64,000 nucleotides of DNA from Sulfuricurvum sp. (GCA_024637295.1 JAGXFL010000013.1:124001-188000); one strand, 5' to 3'; shown: positions 5,146-45,520, counted from the first letter of the stretch. Made by a program: numbers and translations. Notes: generated from the letters alone by a model not told the origin.

Positions 5146-6771
5146 TTAGAGTTGATCAAGATAGTTAATAAGACGCTTGGAAGCTTTTTTTGCTTGTTGA
5201 GCATCATTGGTAACAGATAAAGCAGCGAGTTCTTCTGAGATTTCACTAAGACGTAAATTGTCGCTGATCCCTTTGAGTTTAGCAGCACTACTTCTCCATG
5301 TATGTGTGTCAAACGCTTTGATAGCTTGAACAATGGTATTACTCATGGTTAGGGCATCTGTTTTGTAATCATTAAGCAGTTCATGCATGAAGTCCGGTTC
5401 GATACCAAGAGCACCGGCAACGGCATTTTGATCATAATGAAGGGGGATGGAAACACTCTCTTCACTCTCTTGCTCATCGGCTATGGATGCAGCGCTAGAG
5501 GGTTCTTCTTTTAGCTCCAATTCTTCTAATTCTAAAAAGTCCTTTTTGAATGGAACTTCTTCTTTAATATCATCAGAAATATCGCTTTGTAAGTCTATCT
5601 CATCAAGATGCACTAAGAGTGTTTCATCATTGTTTTGTTTAAGAGAGAACTCGTAAATATCTTCTGAAGCTTGCGGGACAACGTCTGCAGGTAATTTCTT
5701 TTCTTCTACTTTAGCTAACGGTGCCTCTTGTGCTAGGGCAGGTTCTTTGCCCTCCAGTTTTGCGACAATGTTATAAAAATATTTGAGATTTGCTTCAATT
5801 TCAACAGGCTCAGTAGAACTGTTTATGACGCTTAAGGTCTCAAAAGCATTTTCAACGCGTAAATTGGCAGCAACCCCTTTGAGTTTATGGGAAAGGATGT
5901 GAAGCGCATTGATGTCGTTTTTTGCAGCTGCTTCGAAGATATCGTCCTTGAAGTCATGTGATTGCTGTATGAAGTCACCAATAAACTCTTCAATCAAGTC
6001 AACAGGAAGACCCAGTTCATTAGCGGCAATATTGGGATCGTAAATGTAGGAATCGTCAACTTTATGATGGGAAAGATACCCTTTTTCTTCAGAAGAGTAT
6101 TGTACGCTTCCAAGCATTGGACGTTGGGCCACAGGAATAGGCTCTGGTTCTGGTACGATGAGCGGCTCCGCACTCTCCTCTGTTTTTTTCTCTGAAGATG
6201 AATCCAGCTCTTCAGCACTTAAGGGAGCCATTAATGAGGCATAAATATCATCGGTTTCGTCAAGGGAGGTGGGTTGTGTTTTAGGAATATCAAAGATAGT
6301 AGGTTCACTGAGCTGCGTTGCAGTCAGGTGTGTATAATCAGGTAACGGCGTAGATTGGATGCTTTGAGTAATCGATTCACTTGGAAGGGGGGATTCTTTG
6401 ATCGCAGTTTTTAGGACGGTGTTTTGCGGTTTAAAGTCTTCACCGCTGATATTTTTAATCTGTGACATCTCAATAGTGTAGCCATTTTGTGAGGGCTGAT
6501 TGCACAGATGAAAGGCACTTACACTAAGACGGCAGCTGAAGGTACGTCCGTTTCCATGTACAATGGCACTGGAGGCATCTGAATCAGCATGAAGGAGAAA
6601 ATCAATCCATCCAAAATTTTTAAAATTATGAATATAACCCGGTTCATTTGCAAAAAGATCAGCAACATCAGAACAGACGTTTAAAAGTTCTTCCAATGAA
6701 GCATAATTCAGAAGACGTAAGCCCTCATCATCTATGCCGATAAACTCTTGTTTGTTGTTATACAGTAACAC
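5146..6771 (-). CDS. HPt phosphotransfer protein with two HPt-like domains
   Basis: 541 residues from a GTG start with GGGAG just upstream. The first 110 residues look PAS-like but are weakly conserved. A linker rich in Pro, Ser and Glu follows. The first HPt domain (about 250-340) has the phosphoacceptor motif LSHKLKGVAANLRV, with His near 295. The second (about 450-535) has the matching motif SSAAKLKGISDNLRL, where Ala replaces His, so it probably cannot be phosphorylated. The gene lies 11 bases upstream of the hybrid kinase and 12 bases downstream of the PAS gene, so it probably relays phosphate within this cassette. Its exact partner is inferred. Confidence 0.78.
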   Translation of the reverse strand: MLLYNNKQEFIGIDDEGLRLLNYASLEELLNVCSDVADLFANEPGYIHNFKNFGWIDFLLHADSDASSAIVHGNGRTFSCRLSVSAFHLCNQPSQNGYTIEMSQIKNISGEDFKPQNTVLKTAIKESPLPSESITQSIQSTPLPDYTHLTATQLSEPTIFDIPKTQPTSLDETDDIYASLMAPLSAEELDSSSEKKTEESAEPLIVPEPEPIPVAQRPMLGSVQYSSEEKGYLSHHKVDDSYIYDPNIAANELGLPVDLIEEFIGDFIQQSHDFKDDIFEAAAKNDINALHILSHKLKGVAANLRVENAFETLSVINSSTEPVEIEANLKYFYNIVAKLEGKEPALAQEAPLAKVEEKKLPADVVPQASEDIYEFSLKQNNDETLLVHLDEIDLQSDISDDIKEEVPFKKDFLELEELELKEEPSSAASIADEQESEESVSIPLHYDQNAVAGALGIEPDFMHELLNDYKTDALTMSNTIVQAIKAFDTHTWRSSAAKLKGISDNLRLSEISEELAALSVTNDAQQAKKASKRLINYLDQL

Positions 6772-38993: not shown

Positions 38994-39737
38994 ATGGCAA
39001 AATATATCATCCTTGATACGGAAACAACAGGTACGGGTGATAATGATCGTATTATACAGCTGGGTTTTTTAGTTCTTAACGGCAAAGCAGTTGATGTTTA
39101 CAATGATTTATGTTCATGCGATATCCCTATTGCTTATCCTGCGATGGAAGTGCATGGCATTACCCCTGAGATGATTGAGGGGAAGCCGTCTTGTGTAGAG
39201 ACAGAGGCGTTTAAGACGCTTTGCGAACTTAATACATCTGATAATGTTTTGATTATTCATAACGCAGCGTTCGACCTTGGGATGCTGTCTAAAGAAAACT
39301 TTACCTCGAATATGCGATTGATCGACACACTTCGATGTGCCAAACATCTTTTTGAAGAGGAAGAGGCTCATCGACTTCAGTATTTTCGATATCGTTTGGA
39401 GCTGTATAAGCAAGAAGAAGCTGAAGCATCTGCATTGGGAATTGTGGTTAAAGCCCATGATGCGATAGGGGATGTTCTGGTGTTAAAACTCTTTTTAACC
39501 GAATTACGTAAAAAGTTAGAAGAGCGTTTTGGGAGTGTCAATCCGATTGATAAAATGGTTGAACTCACCCAAACCCCGGTGTTTTATACAAAAGCATTGA
39601 AATTTGGAAAATACAAAGGGAAAACGCTTACTGAAATTGTAGATGCAGATAAAGGTTATCTCACTTGGATGCTGGGCAATATGGAGAGTCTGGATGATGA
39701 CATGCGCTATAGCATTGGAAAAGTTTTAGCCTCTTAA
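38994..39737 (+). CDS. DnaQ-like 3'-5' exonuclease with DUF3820-like tail
   Basis: 247 residues. DEDD exonuclease motifs: ExoI IILDTETTGTGDNDRIIQLG, ExoII IIHNAAFDLGML and ExoIII KAHDAIGDVLVLKLFL (with the His-Asp). The C-terminal 50 residues (LKFGKYKGKTLTEIV...YLTWML) are the small domain found at the end of ExoX-like and other nucleases. It could be a DNA polymerase III proofreading-type or repair exonuclease. It ends 4 bases inside the convergent tonB-like gene. Confidence 0.9.
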   Translation: MAKYIILDTETTGTGDNDRIIQLGFLVLNGKAVDVYNDLCSCDIPIAYPAMEVHGITPEMIEGKPSCVETEAFKTLCELNTSDNVLIIHNAAFDLGMLSKENFTSNMRLIDTLRCAKHLFEEEEAHRLQYFRYRLELYKQEEAEASALGIVVKAHDAIGDVLVLKLFLTELRKKLEERFGSVNPIDKMVELTQTPVFYTKALKFGKYKGKTLTEIVDADKGYLTWMLGNMESLDDDMRYSIGKVLAS

Positions 39738-40949: not shown

Positions 40950-42218
40950 ATGGATTATAATATGCAGATGAATTATGATGGACTATCTGGAAAATCGGTC
41001 CTATTGTTAGGCAAACCCCGTGCTCTTAATTTTGATGAGTTTGAAACACTCTTAAAACTGCATACTATTACCATCGTTTCTACCTTTGATGAGGGTGTTG
41101 CATTGGTAATTGAGGGGAAGCTAATGACCCCCTCGCAGCAAGATGATAGTGCCCGGCTGTATGAGTTAGGGATTGTCCCTATTGTAGCGATTGAGGGTAT
41201 TGAGCAATGGCTATGTGGCTCAATAGAACCCAATCGGCTCTTGATGAGTCTAAAGCTTTCTCGTGATCAAGATCGTCTGGTCGATTTCATCCAAAACCGT
41301 TACATCAGTGACGAGCTTTTTTTCAAACTGTTGAAGCTATATGACTGGCAGGGAGAGGGGCTGTTTGATAACGATGCCAATCGTAATGTCACTGCAGCAC
41401 TTATCAGCCGGTTTTATAAGGATATCGAGCGCAATCATAACGTCCAATATGCGATGAGCGGATTGGCACATTTGATCCAAAAATATGGGACAACTGGGCT
41501 TATAGATGCGATCAGCGAACTTTCACCGATTGCCCATGAGTTCAAACATCCAAGTGACCGTACTCTTGGAGGGGTTTTGGATGCCATGGCGGTGCACCCT
41601 AAAACATCCGAGAAGATATTACGGATGTTAATAGGGGATCGGCCAGCGCTTTTGGCCAGAAGAGTCCCTTTGGCGTTAGAAGAAGAACTATTGGCTCTTC
41701 ATAATGAAACGATAAATGAATTGTTGGCGTGTAACGAGAGCCTCTCGATGAACGGTGCTGATACATTAGAAACAACTCATGCTGCGTATATTGCTCAATC
41801 GTTTCCACTGACACAAGAGCGCTTTGAACGGTTATTGAAAATGTGCCCAGAAGCATTAGCAGCTAATGAGACATTGAGTGATAACATGCAAAAAAGATTG
41901 ATGGATTTAGATGATCTTTCGGTCAATGCGGCGCTTTCCTCCAATACATCTCTTGAGAGTTCTTTATTAGCCAAACTGTATGTGAGTGGACGTTATAATG
42001 TTGAGATTGCTAGAAACAGCGTAGTGACACCGCAGCAATGCGAAGAGCTTTGGATGTCAAACGATCCTGCTGTTTTACAAGCGTTAGCAGCTAATATTGC
42101 TACACCTGTCGAGATCCTCTATCAATTGGCATTGGACAGTCGATATGAACGAAGCGTTAAAACAAATGCCGCTTTTGGTAAACATATACAAACCCATAAC
42201 ATAGGATGGCAAGTGTGA
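40950..42218 (+). CDS. BRCT-like plus repeat-domain protein
   Basis: Up to 422 residues; starts at 40962 or 40968 are also possible because a TATAAT overlaps the first codons. Residues about 12-90 (LSGKSVLLLGKPRALNFDEF...GIVPIVAIEGIEQWL) fit a BRCT-like fold, ending with the aromatic helix typical of that domain. The remainder is alpha-helical with short motifs such as ANIATPVEILYQLALD and RNSVVTPQQCEELW, similar to leucine-rich repeat variant units. It leads a four-gene cassette and overlaps the MoxR gene by 13 bases. The family is not known to me. Confidence 0.75.
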   Translation: MDYNMQMNYDGLSGKSVLLLGKPRALNFDEFETLLKLHTITIVSTFDEGVALVIEGKLMTPSQQDDSARLYELGIVPIVAIEGIEQWLCGSIEPNRLLMSLKLSRDQDRLVDFIQNRYISDELFFKLLKLYDWQGEGLFDNDANRNVTAALISRFYKDIERNHNVQYAMSGLAHLIQKYGTTGLIDAISELSPIAHEFKHPSDRTLGGVLDAMAVHPKTSEKILRMLIGDRPALLARRVPLALEEELLALHNETINELLACNESLSMNGADTLETTHAAYIAQSFPLTQERFERLLKMCPEALAANETLSDNMQKRLMDLDDLSVNAALSSNTSLESSLLAKLYVSGRYNVEIARNSVVTPQQCEELWMSNDPAVLQALAANIATPVEILYQLALDSRYERSVKTNAAFGKHIQTHNIGWQV

Positions 42219-43207
42219 GAACTTCGGATACCGTTTCGACAATGACATCGATGATCGCTTCAAAGATACCGACATTTTTATGGGGGCCTCCGGGTATCGG
42301 TAAATCCTCGATTATCAAACAAATAGCCAAAGATGCAGGAATCGAGTGTATTGATCTGCGTCTTTCGTTGATGGATCCGACCGATCTCAAAGGGATCCCT
42401 TTTTATGACAAAGAGGTACATCAGGCACTTTGGGCACCACCGTCATTTTTGCCAAGTACAGGAAAAGGGATATTATTTTTGGATGAGTTAAACTCTGCCG
42501 CACCTGCGGTACAAGCCTCTGCTTATCAGCTTATATTGGATCGACAGGTAGGTGAATACCGTCTTCCTGATGGGTGGGCGATCGTCGCTGCGGGTAATCG
42601 CGAGGGAGATAGAGGGGTTGTCTATCGTCTTCCCTCTCCGTTGGCCAATCGCTTTGTCCACGTTGAGATGGAAGTGAGTGTTGAGGACTGGAGGACGTGG
42701 GCAATGAAAACCCGTATTGATACACGTATTATCGCCTATATCACATTTAAAAATGAGGCTCTTTTTACATTTGACCCCCTTAAAAATGAGCGCAGTTTCG
42801 CAACACCAAGAAGCTGGGAAGCGGTTAACAATATCCTCAACAGCCCACTTGAGAAAAATCTATGGCTAGAGGCCATTGGCGGGGCAATTGGACATGATAA
42901 TGCCATCGATTTTTTAGGATTTTTAAAAATCATGGATAAGCTTCCCGATGTAGAGGCAATTCTAAGAGGGGATGAAGTGGAAGCCAGCGAGGATATATCA
43001 GCACTGTATGTATTGTCATGTGCACTGGTCTCACGGCTCCTCCAAAACCCTGAGGATGAAGCGATCTCAAATGTGTTGCGTTATACCTTGAAGCTCAAAA
43101 ATGAGTTTGCGGTATTGATCCTTCAAGACCTTCAGCGTCAAGGGGTCAAGATGGAACATTTGGATGCGTTTGGCGAATGGGTCGAGGCGTATGCTTATTT
43201 ACTATGA
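42206..43207 (+). CDS. MoxR-type AAA+ ATPase
   Basis: 333 residues. Walker A FLWGPPGIGKSSIIKQ, Walker B GILFLDELNSAAPAVQ and the sensor segment VAAGNREGDRGVVYRLPSPLANRF are clear. MoxR ATPases usually remodel or activate proteins with VWA-domain partners; the next gene is such a partner. The stop overlaps the start of the VWA gene (ATGA). The substrate is unknown. Confidence 0.92.
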   Translation: MASVRTSDTVSTMTSMIASKIPTFLWGPPGIGKSSIIKQIAKDAGIECIDLRLSLMDPTDLKGIPFYDKEVHQALWAPPSFLPSTGKGILFLDELNSAAPAVQASAYQLILDRQVGEYRLPDGWAIVAAGNREGDRGVVYRLPSPLANRFVHVEMEVSVEDWRTWAMKTRIDTRIIAYITFKNEALFTFDPLKNERSFATPRSWEAVNNILNSPLEKNLWLEAIGGAIGHDNAIDFLGFLKIMDKLPDVEAILRGDEVEASEDISALYVLSCALVSRLLQNPEDEAISNVLRYTLKLKNEFAVLILQDLQRQGVKMEHLDAFGEWVEAYAYLL

Positions 43208-44280
43208 TCGATTTTTCTCCCGTTAAAGCGAAACTACTACTAGAATATCCTTTTTTTGGGACGATATCCAGTGGGATGTTGATGCGTCTAAATGATAATA
43301 TCGAGAGTTTTACAATACGTGATAATGCGTTTGAATACCGTGAAGCGTATATGAATGCACTTAGTGATGAGCAAAAGATGTTTGCTCTGTGCAACGGTGC
43401 GCTTCATGAGGCACTTTCCCATACAAACCGTCGGGGAAATCGAAGCCCATGGCTATGGCAAACGGCGTGTGACTATGCAATCAATAGGCTGCTAATAGAC
43501 AGTGGATTTGAGCCACCACCAGCGATTACCTATGATAAACGGTTTGGAAATCTCAGTGCCGAAGAGATCTATGCAGAACTCTCTCAAGAGTTTTTGGATC
43601 AGGAACAAAACGATCGTGATGCGGATGATCGCAGGGAGGGTGAGAGTGCGGATGAAAAACTCTCCCGTGCTCAAAGGGAAAAACGTTCTCGTGATGCATT
43701 GGACAAATCAGATCCCTTACAAGAGGCACTTGAACAGCTTTTAGGGGAGCGTTCGCATAAGACTATTGATTGGCGTAGTGAATTACGTGATGCAATCGGC
43801 GGATATTATGTAAGTGACTATACCCTCATACCACCTTCAAAAAAACTGCTGTATGCAGGTGTCTATTTACCCGGTGTCCATTCGCGCCATTTGAACCTTG
43901 CCATTGCTATCGATAGTTCCGGTTCGGTGGATGAGGTGTTACTCTCACAGTTTATTGCTGAAATCGAAGGGATATTGGAAGCCTTTGGCTCTTACTCCAT
44001 CGATTTGATTGTATGCGATGATAAAATTCGATCTCATGAGCGTTTTGAGAACGGTGAAGTAGTCAACTATAACCTTTTCGGCGGTGGAGGGACTGATTTT
44101 ACCCCTGTTTTTGAGTTTATTGATACATGGATGGTTCCGCCAAAGTTTTTAGTCTACTTTACGGATCTGGATGGAAAATTTCCGCTCATAGAACCAAATT
44201 ATGAGATATTGTGGATTGCCCCTATGGATGGGGATGTTCCATTTGGAAGAGTTGTTGTGATAAAGGGAGAAAATGATTGA
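43204..44280 (+). CDS. VWA protein with putative metallopeptidase N-terminus (DUF2201-like)
   Basis: About 358 residues from ATG 43204, which overlaps the MoxR stop by 4 bases; the longer frame is rejected. The N-terminal domain has LCNGALHEALSHTNRRG and WLWQTACDYAINRLL, aligning with the zinc-peptidase-like DUF2201 motif, though the His-Glu expected first is replaced by Asn-Gly. An acidic linker (about 120-170) follows. The VWA domain (about 225-358) has a complete MIDAS: LNLAIAIDSSGSVDE, a Thr/Asp-containing FGGGGTDFTP. It is the expected partner of the MoxR ATPase. Confidence 0.88.
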   Translation: MIDFSPVKAKLLLEYPFFGTISSGMLMRLNDNIESFTIRDNAFEYREAYMNALSDEQKMFALCNGALHEALSHTNRRGNRSPWLWQTACDYAINRLLIDSGFEPPPAITYDKRFGNLSAEEIYAELSQEFLDQEQNDRDADDRREGESADEKLSRAQREKRSRDALDKSDPLQEALEQLLGERSHKTIDWRSELRDAIGGYYVSDYTLIPPSKKLLYAGVYLPGVHSRHLNLAIAIDSSGSVDEVLLSQFIAEIEGILEAFGSYSIDLIVCDDKIRSHERFENGEVVNYNLFGGGGTDFTPVFEFIDTWMVPPKFLVYFTDLDGKFPLIEPNYEILWIAPMDGDVPFGRVVVIKGEND

Positions 44281-45520
44281 AAATGCTTTAAAAATCTTAG
44301 AACACTCCAATCTTTTTATAACGGGAGGGGCAGGTTCGGGTAAAACGACTTTGACCAAAGCAATTATCGAGCATGCGCACACCCATGGAGATAAAGTAGC
44401 ATCGCTGGCATCTACGGGAATGGCGGCAACGCTCATCGGAGGGCAGACGCTGCACAGTTTTTTCGATCTTGGGATCGCCAATTCTCAAGAGGAGTTGGAA
44501 CGTAACGGAAAATTGGAATGTTCTAAAAAAGTGCACAAGCTGATACACTCGATGAAGCTTATTGTCATCGATGAGATCTCAATGGTGAGTGCACCTGTAC
44601 TAGATATGATACGACTTCGGCTGTTGCAGGGGGAGTTTAACGGTAAGCTGGTTGCCATCGGCGATTTTTTACAGCTTCCTCCGGTGGTACGTGGTAATGA
44701 GCCGATCTATTTTGCATTTGAATCGCCTAGCTGGGAGCGGTTTTGTTTTGAGACGATCCATTTAAGAGGATCATTTCGTACCCATGAAGAAGAGTTCTTG
44801 GGTTTATTGGAAAAAGTACGTCATGCCTCTATTGAAGAGCAGGAAGCAACTGCTTTGGATGCACTTGTTCGTCCGTTACCTGAGGACAAAAGTGCCATTA
44901 CACTGCTTTACGGTAAAAACATTAGCGCCCAAAACCATAACCGTGCTCAATTAGCCCATTTGAACGGGGATGAGATTGAGATTGCGACGTATGTCACGGT
45001 TCATGATAAAAAGATGCAAGAGCGTGATGTTGAACGTTTTATGAGTGAAAGTCGCATCGAATCTATTATGGTACTTAAGGTAGGTGCCCCGATTCTCTTC
45101 ACCCGTAATGCATGGAATTATTATAACGGTGAGCGCGGAAGGATTACATCGATCGAAGACGATACGGTATGGGTCAAAAAAGAAGATGGCAAAAGTGTGA
45201 AAGTGGAGCGTGTAGAGACGATTAAGACGCGATGGATTGAAAAGGGGAAAGCTTTAAATGAAGAGAAACTGATCACTTTGAGTCAATTTCCTATCACGTT
45301 AGCATTTGCGATCACGATTCATAAATCGCAAGGGATGAGCTTGAGCGACTATGTGATCGAGACGAACGAGATCTTCGCCCCCTCGCAGTTTTATGTGGCG
45401 TTATCCCGCTCCATCTCTGCACATAGGGTGACCCTGACGCGACCGAACCGAACGTGGGAACGACTTTGTTTTATTCACCCAAAAGCACTGAGTTTTGTGG
45501 AGAGAATCTCCTTGGTATAA
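44273..45520 (+). CDS. Pif1/RecD-like superfamily 1B helicase
   Basis: 415 residues. Motif I ITGGAGSGKTTLTKAI, motif Ia LASTGMAATLIGG, motif II LIVIDEISMVSA, motif III LVAIGDFLQLPPV and the C-terminal motifs FAITIHKSQGMSLSD and FYVALSRSISAHRV are all present, so the ATPase core is complete. Pif1-like helicases unwind DNA 5' to 3' and act on G-quadruplexes or R-loops. It overlaps the VWA gene by 8 bases and is the last gene of the cassette. Confidence 0.92.
   Translation: MIENALKILEHSNLFITGGAGSGKTTLTKAIIEHAHTHGDKVASLASTGMAATLIGGQTLHSFFDLGIANSQEELERNGKLECSKKVHKLIHSMKLIVIDEISMVSAPVLDMIRLRLLQGEFNGKLVAIGDFLQLPPVVRGNEPIYFAFESPSWERFCFETIHLRGSFRTHEEEFLGLLEKVRHASIEEQEATALDALVRPLPEDKSAITLLYGKNISAQNHNRAQLAHLNGDEIEIATYVTVHDKKMQERDVERFMSESRIESIMVLKVGAPILFTRNAWNYYNGERGRITSIEDDTVWVKKEDGKSVKVERVETIKTRWIEKGKALNEEKLITLSQFPITLAFAITIHKSQGMSLSDYVIETNEIFAPSQFYVALSRSISAHRVTLTRPNRTWERLCFIHPKALSFVERISLV

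Follow-up and report, generated by a model that had tools for sequence, protein, structure and literature searches.

A MoxR-VWA gene triad with a BRCT-solenoid subunit and an apparently retired metallopeptidase domain in Sulfuricurvum and its relatives

Four overlapping genes on one strand of a 64,000-nucleotide stretch of Sulfuricurvum sp. DNA (GCA_024637295.1 JAGXFL010000013.1:124001-188000; the whole stretch is called the window here) raise the question of which of their products work together, and on what target. The genes encode a 422-residue protein with a BRCT-type domain, a MoxR ATPase, a VWA protein and a Pif1-like helicase. An initial annotation made from the sequence had taken all four as a single functional cassette with a DNA-linked role. 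We find that genes 1 to 3 are one unit and that the helicase lies outside it. The window belongs to a 2.17 Mb genome of the Sulfuricurvum group, whose closest named relatives are Sulfuricurvum metagenome-assembled genomes with 76-79% protein identity. The triad, its motifs and the adjoining helicase gene are located as follows.

40950..42218, + strand: gene 1, BRCT plus alpha-solenoid (LRV/HEAT-like) protein of 422 amino acids, proposed client-selecting adaptor (AlphaFold2 model, alignments, co-inheritance with MoxR)
40971..41228, + strand: BRCT domain, residues 8-93, with a conserved G-K-x-R after the first strand (structure match, hhalign)
41229..42209, + strand: alpha-solenoid, residues 94-420 (AlphaFold2 model, alignments; structure match to 1lrv at Z 6.4 only)
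42206..43207, + strand: gene 2, MoxR AAA+ ATPase of 333 amino acids (Pfam AAA/AAA_3)
43204..44280, + strand: gene 3, DUF2201 protein of 358 amino acids with a putatively inactivated metallopeptidase-like domain and a VWA domain (Pfam)
43393..43407, + strand: degenerate zinc motif N64-GAL-H68, at the site of HExxH in phage and plasmid relatives (alignments)
43912..43926, + strand: metal-ion-dependent adhesion site (MIDAS) motif DSSGS, D237-S241 (alignment of VWA proteins)
44273..45520, + strand: gene 4, Pif1/Dda/RecD2-like superfamily 1 helicase of 415 amino acids, operon neighbour outside the triad (Pfam PIF1, PHROG)

Open reading frame coordinates confirm the reported overlaps of 13, 4 (ATGA) and 8 bases between consecutive genes. 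The start of gene 3 is taken at the ATG at 43204, nine codons inside the frame given by the mechanical open reading frame list. Gene order and spacing are repeated across Sulfuricurvum genomes, and the four-gene arrangement is therefore not a product of chance. Scans for sigma-70-like and terminator-like signals returned sites no more numerous than in shuffled sequences.

The three genes of the triad are inherited together. Among 121 Sulfurimonadaceae genomes, the gene 1 protein is present in 94 and absent from 27; these sets were compiled by hand from match tables, and the statistics drawn from them ignore relatedness. A close MoxR homologue occurs in 90 of the 94 genomes with gene 1 and in none of the 27 without it, and the VWA protein in 91 of 94 and three of 27, respectively. 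The exceptions come mostly from fragmented or low-completeness assemblies, and losses of the triad are spread over some ten genera. The clear exception is a genome that carries a lone triad-type VWA gene beside the helicase, with neither gene 1 nor a close MoxR (G069:C90:42736-46369).

Outside this family, all 16 genomes with gene 1 also carry one family VWA gene (one copy is split in two) and one close MoxR gene (partial in G284). The VWA gene lies 0.1-0.95 Mb from the rest in some of them. In genus g61, for example, MoxR and VWA are found at positions 1086064 and 1560751 of G364, and at 309354 and 1258888 of G308. Because the partners co-occur even where the VWA gene is distant, the tie between them is one of co-inheritance beyond synteny. 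Genes 1 and 2 are separated in only one of about 88 genomes.

Gene 2 matches the Pfam families AAA and AAA_3 above their cut-offs, as expected for a MoxR-type AAA+ protein. The motifs of an active ATPase are intact. Walker A (GxPGxGKS) and Walker B (LFLDE[LI]N) are present in 175 of 175 MoxR homologues checked, and the arginine-finger motif PLANRF in 172 of 175. The bpMoxR profile scores below its cut-off on the gene 2 protein (18.3 versus 27 bits).

The gene 3 protein consists of DUF2201_N (4.6e-22) followed by DUF2201 (2.7e-27), both above Pfam cut-offs, which denote a putative metallopeptidase domain and a VWA-like domain. The MIDAS residues D237, S239 and S241 are invariant across the VWA alignment. 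Foldseek searches with the predicted structure recover VWA domains, NorD of the NorQD complex and, over a short match, the metallopeptidase selecase. Together with the Pfam domains of genes 2 and 3 and the MIDAS motif, the match to NorD bears out the MoxR-VWA pair described in the initial annotation.

The zinc-binding HExxH motif is lost in 126 of the 126 Campylobacterota VWA copies examined, mostly in favour of N[GAS]x[ML]H, and N64 and H68 are invariant in the closer set of relatives. Intact motifs are found in relatives from phages (HEVMH in PA5oct, HELLH in Thermus phage phiFa) and plasmids (HELLH, HEALH and HEVWH). Because the loss extends to all the Campylobacterota proteins examined, the N-terminal domain of gene 3 appears, by its motif, to be a retired peptidase. 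An 'HNH endonuclease' or 'homing endonuclease' label is attached to this DUF2201/VWA protein in PHROG family 1314 and in several phage records, for example, gp144 of phage PA5oct (L253 6965-8149). The endonuclease label on phrog_1314 looks wrong, since the HExxH and MIDAS motifs and the Pfam hits of relatives indicate a metallopeptidase-like domain joined to a VWA domain.

Searches of the gene 1 protein against Pfam, NCBIfam, PADLOC, PHROGs, PDB sequences and phage records gave no convincing match, and no Pfam family, PF00533 (BRCT) included, exceeded its cut-off on the protein of the window. An AlphaFold2 model built on an alignment of 59 relatives has a confidence score (pLDDT) of 91.4. In this model, residues 8-93 adopt a four-strand/three-helix fold with the strand and helix order of BRCT domains. 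The best structural match found with VIA-align is the BRCT domain of a bacterial DNA ligase (9a6z_B; Z 9.7, root-mean-square deviation 2.3 over 77 residues), followed by that of RFC1 (Z 8.0) and many further BRCT domains at Z 6-8. Profile comparison by hhalign with the LigA BRCT domains of the same phylum aligns the two in the G-K/T-G register with a score of 27.3 and a probability of 59%, where 100 column shuffles reached a maximum of 17.9. Against the LigA profile, the rest of the protein, taken in two parts, gave background scores. PF00533 matches two orthologues of gene 1 below threshold, at 14 bits, which adds support. For the protein of the window, sequence searches alone give no BRCT match, and the assignment is therefore based on fold and profile comparison, both of which uphold the BRCT-type domain first suggested for this protein. 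Within the domain, G21 and R24 of the G-K-x-R motif after strand 1 are invariant in the alignments.

The remainder of the protein is a solenoid in which residues 95-171 form a strongly conserved block and the C-terminus carries the signature 'N-TP-LYQL'. Its resemblance to LRV repeats, as judged from the match of the model to 1lrv, is suggestive only, and Pfam LRV profiles fall below cut-off on the protein (LRV_2, E 0.53 only). A PADLOC match to Cas8b (0.0018) covers the helical part only and was dismissed as chance-level. Other Campylobacterota families have separate proteins of about 200 amino acids with LRV-like repeats, whose match to the gene 1 profile is confined to its solenoid part (for example, G131:C1:1670462-1670950 and G463:C4:68240-68755).

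What might such a triad do? We propose, with a probability of roughly 60%, that genes 1 to 3 encode one ATP-driven remodelling machine of the NorQD type in which the BRCT-solenoid protein is an adaptor that selects the client. In NorQD, the VWA protein plugs the MoxR ring with its VWA domain and acts on the client through its N-terminal part (PMC9976466, PMC13036017). By analogy, the gene 2 protein would form an AAA+ ring, and the DUF2201 protein would serve as a co-chaperone whose MIDAS-bearing VWA domain docks on this ring, as NorD does on NorQ. With its catalysis apparently lost, the former metallopeptidase domain may have become a lever or a binding module. The adaptor would both select and position the client; its solenoid would grip a protein, and its BRCT domain, via the conserved GKxR loop, would bind either another protein or an anionic target. 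That genes 1 and 2 are so rarely separated would fit direct contact between adaptor and ring. In Sulfuricurvum, the helicase would share with this machine only transcription and translational coupling. An earlier guess that the pair remodels a client is judged to be right, but ATP-driven remodelling is a step that we infer.

The NorQ/NorD, CbbQ/CbbO and RavA/ViaA couples resemble the triad in that a MoxR AAA+ protein is encoded next to a partner with a C-terminal VWA domain and an intact MIDAS. The triad differs from them in its third, BRCT-solenoid subunit and in the DUF2201-type N-terminal domain of its VWA protein. The characterized couples NorQD, CbbQO and RavA-ViaA act on metabolic enzymes (PMC9976466). 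The triad could likewise be a chaperone for metalloenzyme maturation that acts on a respiratory or biosynthetic enzyme by inserting or freeing a cofactor, with BRCT as a protein-protein module only. The source genome (G000, contig C10) holds two more, paralogous MoxR-DUF2201 pairs (L185 13896-16040 and L186 8452-10700) in settings that favour this explanation. One pair (42%) lies beside NifQ and an ODP/flavodiiron-type flavoprotein gene in a nitrogen-fixation region. The other (56%) lies beside urea carboxylase and allophanate hydrolase genes. No BRCT-solenoid gene is found near either. However, known couples usually adjoin the gene of their client, and the gene maps of the triad contain no consistent client-enzyme gene; its neighbours are exonuclease, TonB-like, regulatory and helicase genes. 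The BRCT domain also has no counterpart in systems of the NorQD/CbbQO type. A maturation role is possible, if on the doubtful side.

Several observations weigh against the proposed adaptor-equipped machine. The BRCT domain shares its fold and its order of strands and helices with those of LigA/DnlJ and RFC1, but it is fused to a solenoid and the canonical phosphate pocket (Thr/Ser-Gly after strand 1 and a helix-2 Lys) is not conserved. In its L20-G21-K22-x-R24 sequence, Leu replaces the phosphate-binding Thr, and the conserved helix-2 Lys is absent. Binding of DNA or phosphopeptides by this domain is uncertain for this reason. The AlphaFold2 model of the VWA protein is only moderate (pLDDT 74). 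Adjacency of MoxR and VWA is broken in 17 of 84 genomes, from which it follows that strict co-expression of the triad is not required.

The position of the helicase bears on a second explanation, namely that all four genes form a cassette for DNA replication or repair, with the Pif1-like helicase either taking part in its work or serving as its client. The gene 4 protein matches Pfam PIF1 (E 3.6e-29, 102.4 bits versus a cut-off of 25.9) and, over its full length, a PHROG of Dda-like helicases (1.1e-60). The overlapping genes of the window and the BRCT fold of gene 1 are consistent with such a cassette. An exonuclease gene is also present upstream in the window:

38994..39737, + strand: DnaQ/ExoX-like 3'-5' exonuclease, context only (Pfam RNase_T plus ExoX-like_C; gene maps)

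This exonuclease directly precedes gene 1 in several other genera, and in g7 and g8 the exonuclease, triad and helicase are contiguous on one strand. The helicase adjoins the triad in Sulfuricurvum, g7 and g8 and is no more than about 12 kb away in g2, g9 and g14, so the linkage that the initial annotation expected in relatives is seen in these six genera. It breaks down in the complete chromosomes of g11 and g16, where more than 1 Mb separates the two.

The distribution of the helicase is independent of the triad. At E <= 0.001 it is detected in 117 of the 121 Sulfurimonadaceae genomes, some of these hits being weak or paralogous. It is present in 23 of the 27 genomes that lack gene 1, and its association with the triad is not significant (p 0.11). 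It also occurs throughout families without the triad (in the phylum as a whole, 176 of 298 genomes have it), and in several genomes it travels with a block of housekeeping genes that includes peroxiredoxin, MetK and Ndk. The exonuclease, too, stays in triad-less genomes; neither neighbour is specific to the triad.

One Sulfuricurvum genome (G086) carries a deletion scar. The whole triad has been removed in frame, so that the start of gene 1 (eight codons, MDYNDAMN) now runs directly into the end of gene 3 (KGNDD-stop). The resulting 13-codon leader, MDYNDAMNKGNDD, lies on the reverse strand of L058 with its start at top-strand position 6541. Because this scar retains the same 8-base overlap with an intact helicase gene, the triad has been lost while the helicase and its translational coupling were kept. 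The four-gene functional cassette is improbable and was rejected on the distribution of the helicase, which is an independent housekeeping gene sharing the triad's operon and not a component of the triad. The statement that the four genes must be translated together is likewise too strong, as the helicase persists in close relatives that lack the triad, and the VWA gene is often apart from MoxR.

The junction between MoxR and VWA is a recurrent insertion site. Defence-type genes occupy it in eight genomes; the inserts include AbiV, an EcoRI-type methylase with GmrSD/HNH, type III restriction-modification genes, an Eco57I-type methylase, a Type ISP enzyme, a HepT-MNT toxin-antitoxin pair and Fic genes. 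Five genomes have a ferritin-like gene at this site, accompanied in two cases by restriction-modification genes. Inserts at the junction or next to a split-off VWA gene are seen at loci L040, L041, L060, L061, L208, L209, L211 and L224.

Such genes raise the question of an anti-phage or conflict function. Ternary MoxR-vWA systems with VMAP, iSTAND, FtsH or beta-propeller third components have been proposed as conflict systems (Kaur et al. 2020, PMC7159879), and the triad shares their logic of MoxR, vWA and a third component. The inserts in the eight genomes above (restriction-modification, AbiV, HepT-MNT or Fic) point the same way, as do plasmid relatives located near toxin-antitoxin and GmrSD-type genes. 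In the triad, however, the third component combines BRCT and solenoid, no variable effector domain is present, bpMoxR is below cut-off and PADLOC gives no hit to the triad (best 0.0015). Neither 'BRCT' nor 'LRV' occurs in PMC7159879. The inserts differ from one another and sit in a separable junction, and thus look like cargo. Most genomes of the family have the triad, which keeps a syntenic locus in related species and is inherited largely vertically. With mutually unrelated inserts in a stable family-level locus, a conflict role is very improbable and is set aside.

Phage genes from the same MoxR and VWA families are common (phrog_1297, 4e-102; phrog_1314, 8e-66), with identities of 26-46% in the best phage records. 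A pair of MoxR and metallopeptidase-vWA proteins has been described in group 2.2 jumbo phages (PMC7824862). These belong to the same families as genes 2 and 3, but the phage versions checked keep HExxH, which cellular copies have lost, and no relative of gene 1 was found in phage records. The virion-assembly role proposed for the phage pair does not carry over to the triad.

Closer parallels in gene content are present on Thermaceae plasmids, where solenoid, MoxR and DUF2201 VWA genes form one cluster. On Thermus oshimai pTHEOS01 (L257 3040-6420), an LRV-repeat gene overlaps MoxR, which in turn overlaps the VWA gene. The solenoid protein has 296 amino acids and a Pfam LRV match at 2.6e-11, with no BRCT hit. 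On Allomeiothermus pMESIL01 (L265 4542-8126), a HEAT-annotated protein is followed by VWA and then MoxR. These clusters differ from the triad in being plasmid-borne, in having no detected BRCT and in a VWA protein that keeps HExxH (checked in Thermus). Because such triads recur on these plasmids, DUF2201-type MoxR-VWA pairs repeatedly have a solenoid protein as their third subunit. Fusion to BRCT and loss of HExxH distinguish the Campylobacterota version within the sample studied.

The literature searched contains no paper combining BRCT with MoxR or LRV with BRCT, and its mentions of DUF2201 apparently concern other subjects, judging by titles. The WGR-MoxR combination of the MolR/yeh operon of E. 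coli may be an analogue; in the literature searched, WGR and MoxR are mentioned together only in the jumbo-phage paper. The MoxR-VWA kind itself is known; what is new here is a triad with a BRCT-solenoid subunit and an apparently retired peptidase domain.

Among the possible clients of the proposed machine, the likeliest single class is a DNA-associated one, such as a ligase or a complex for replication or repair, with about one chance in three. A DNA-linked client is a plausible hypothesis: the BRCT fold suggests it, and so do the exonuclease and helicase neighbours, although these are not specific to the triad. Rather unlikely, as a more specific version, is that the BRCT-solenoid protein brings MoxR-VWA to DNA ends or to the ligase or replication machinery, where stalled DNA-bound complexes would be stripped or reactivated.

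MoxR-VWA machines are widespread, and few have a known client. The triad adds a third, obligately co-inherited BRCT subunit, and a seemingly inactivated domain takes the place of the ancestral peptidase. Triads of solenoid, MoxR and DUF2201 proteins exist in unrelated phyla. With the helicase set apart from the system, the putative adaptor provides a concrete handle for a client search. If a role at DNA is true, this would be a MoxR-VWA system that works on DNA transactions instead of a metabolic enzyme, with a retired metallopeptidase domain as its lever.

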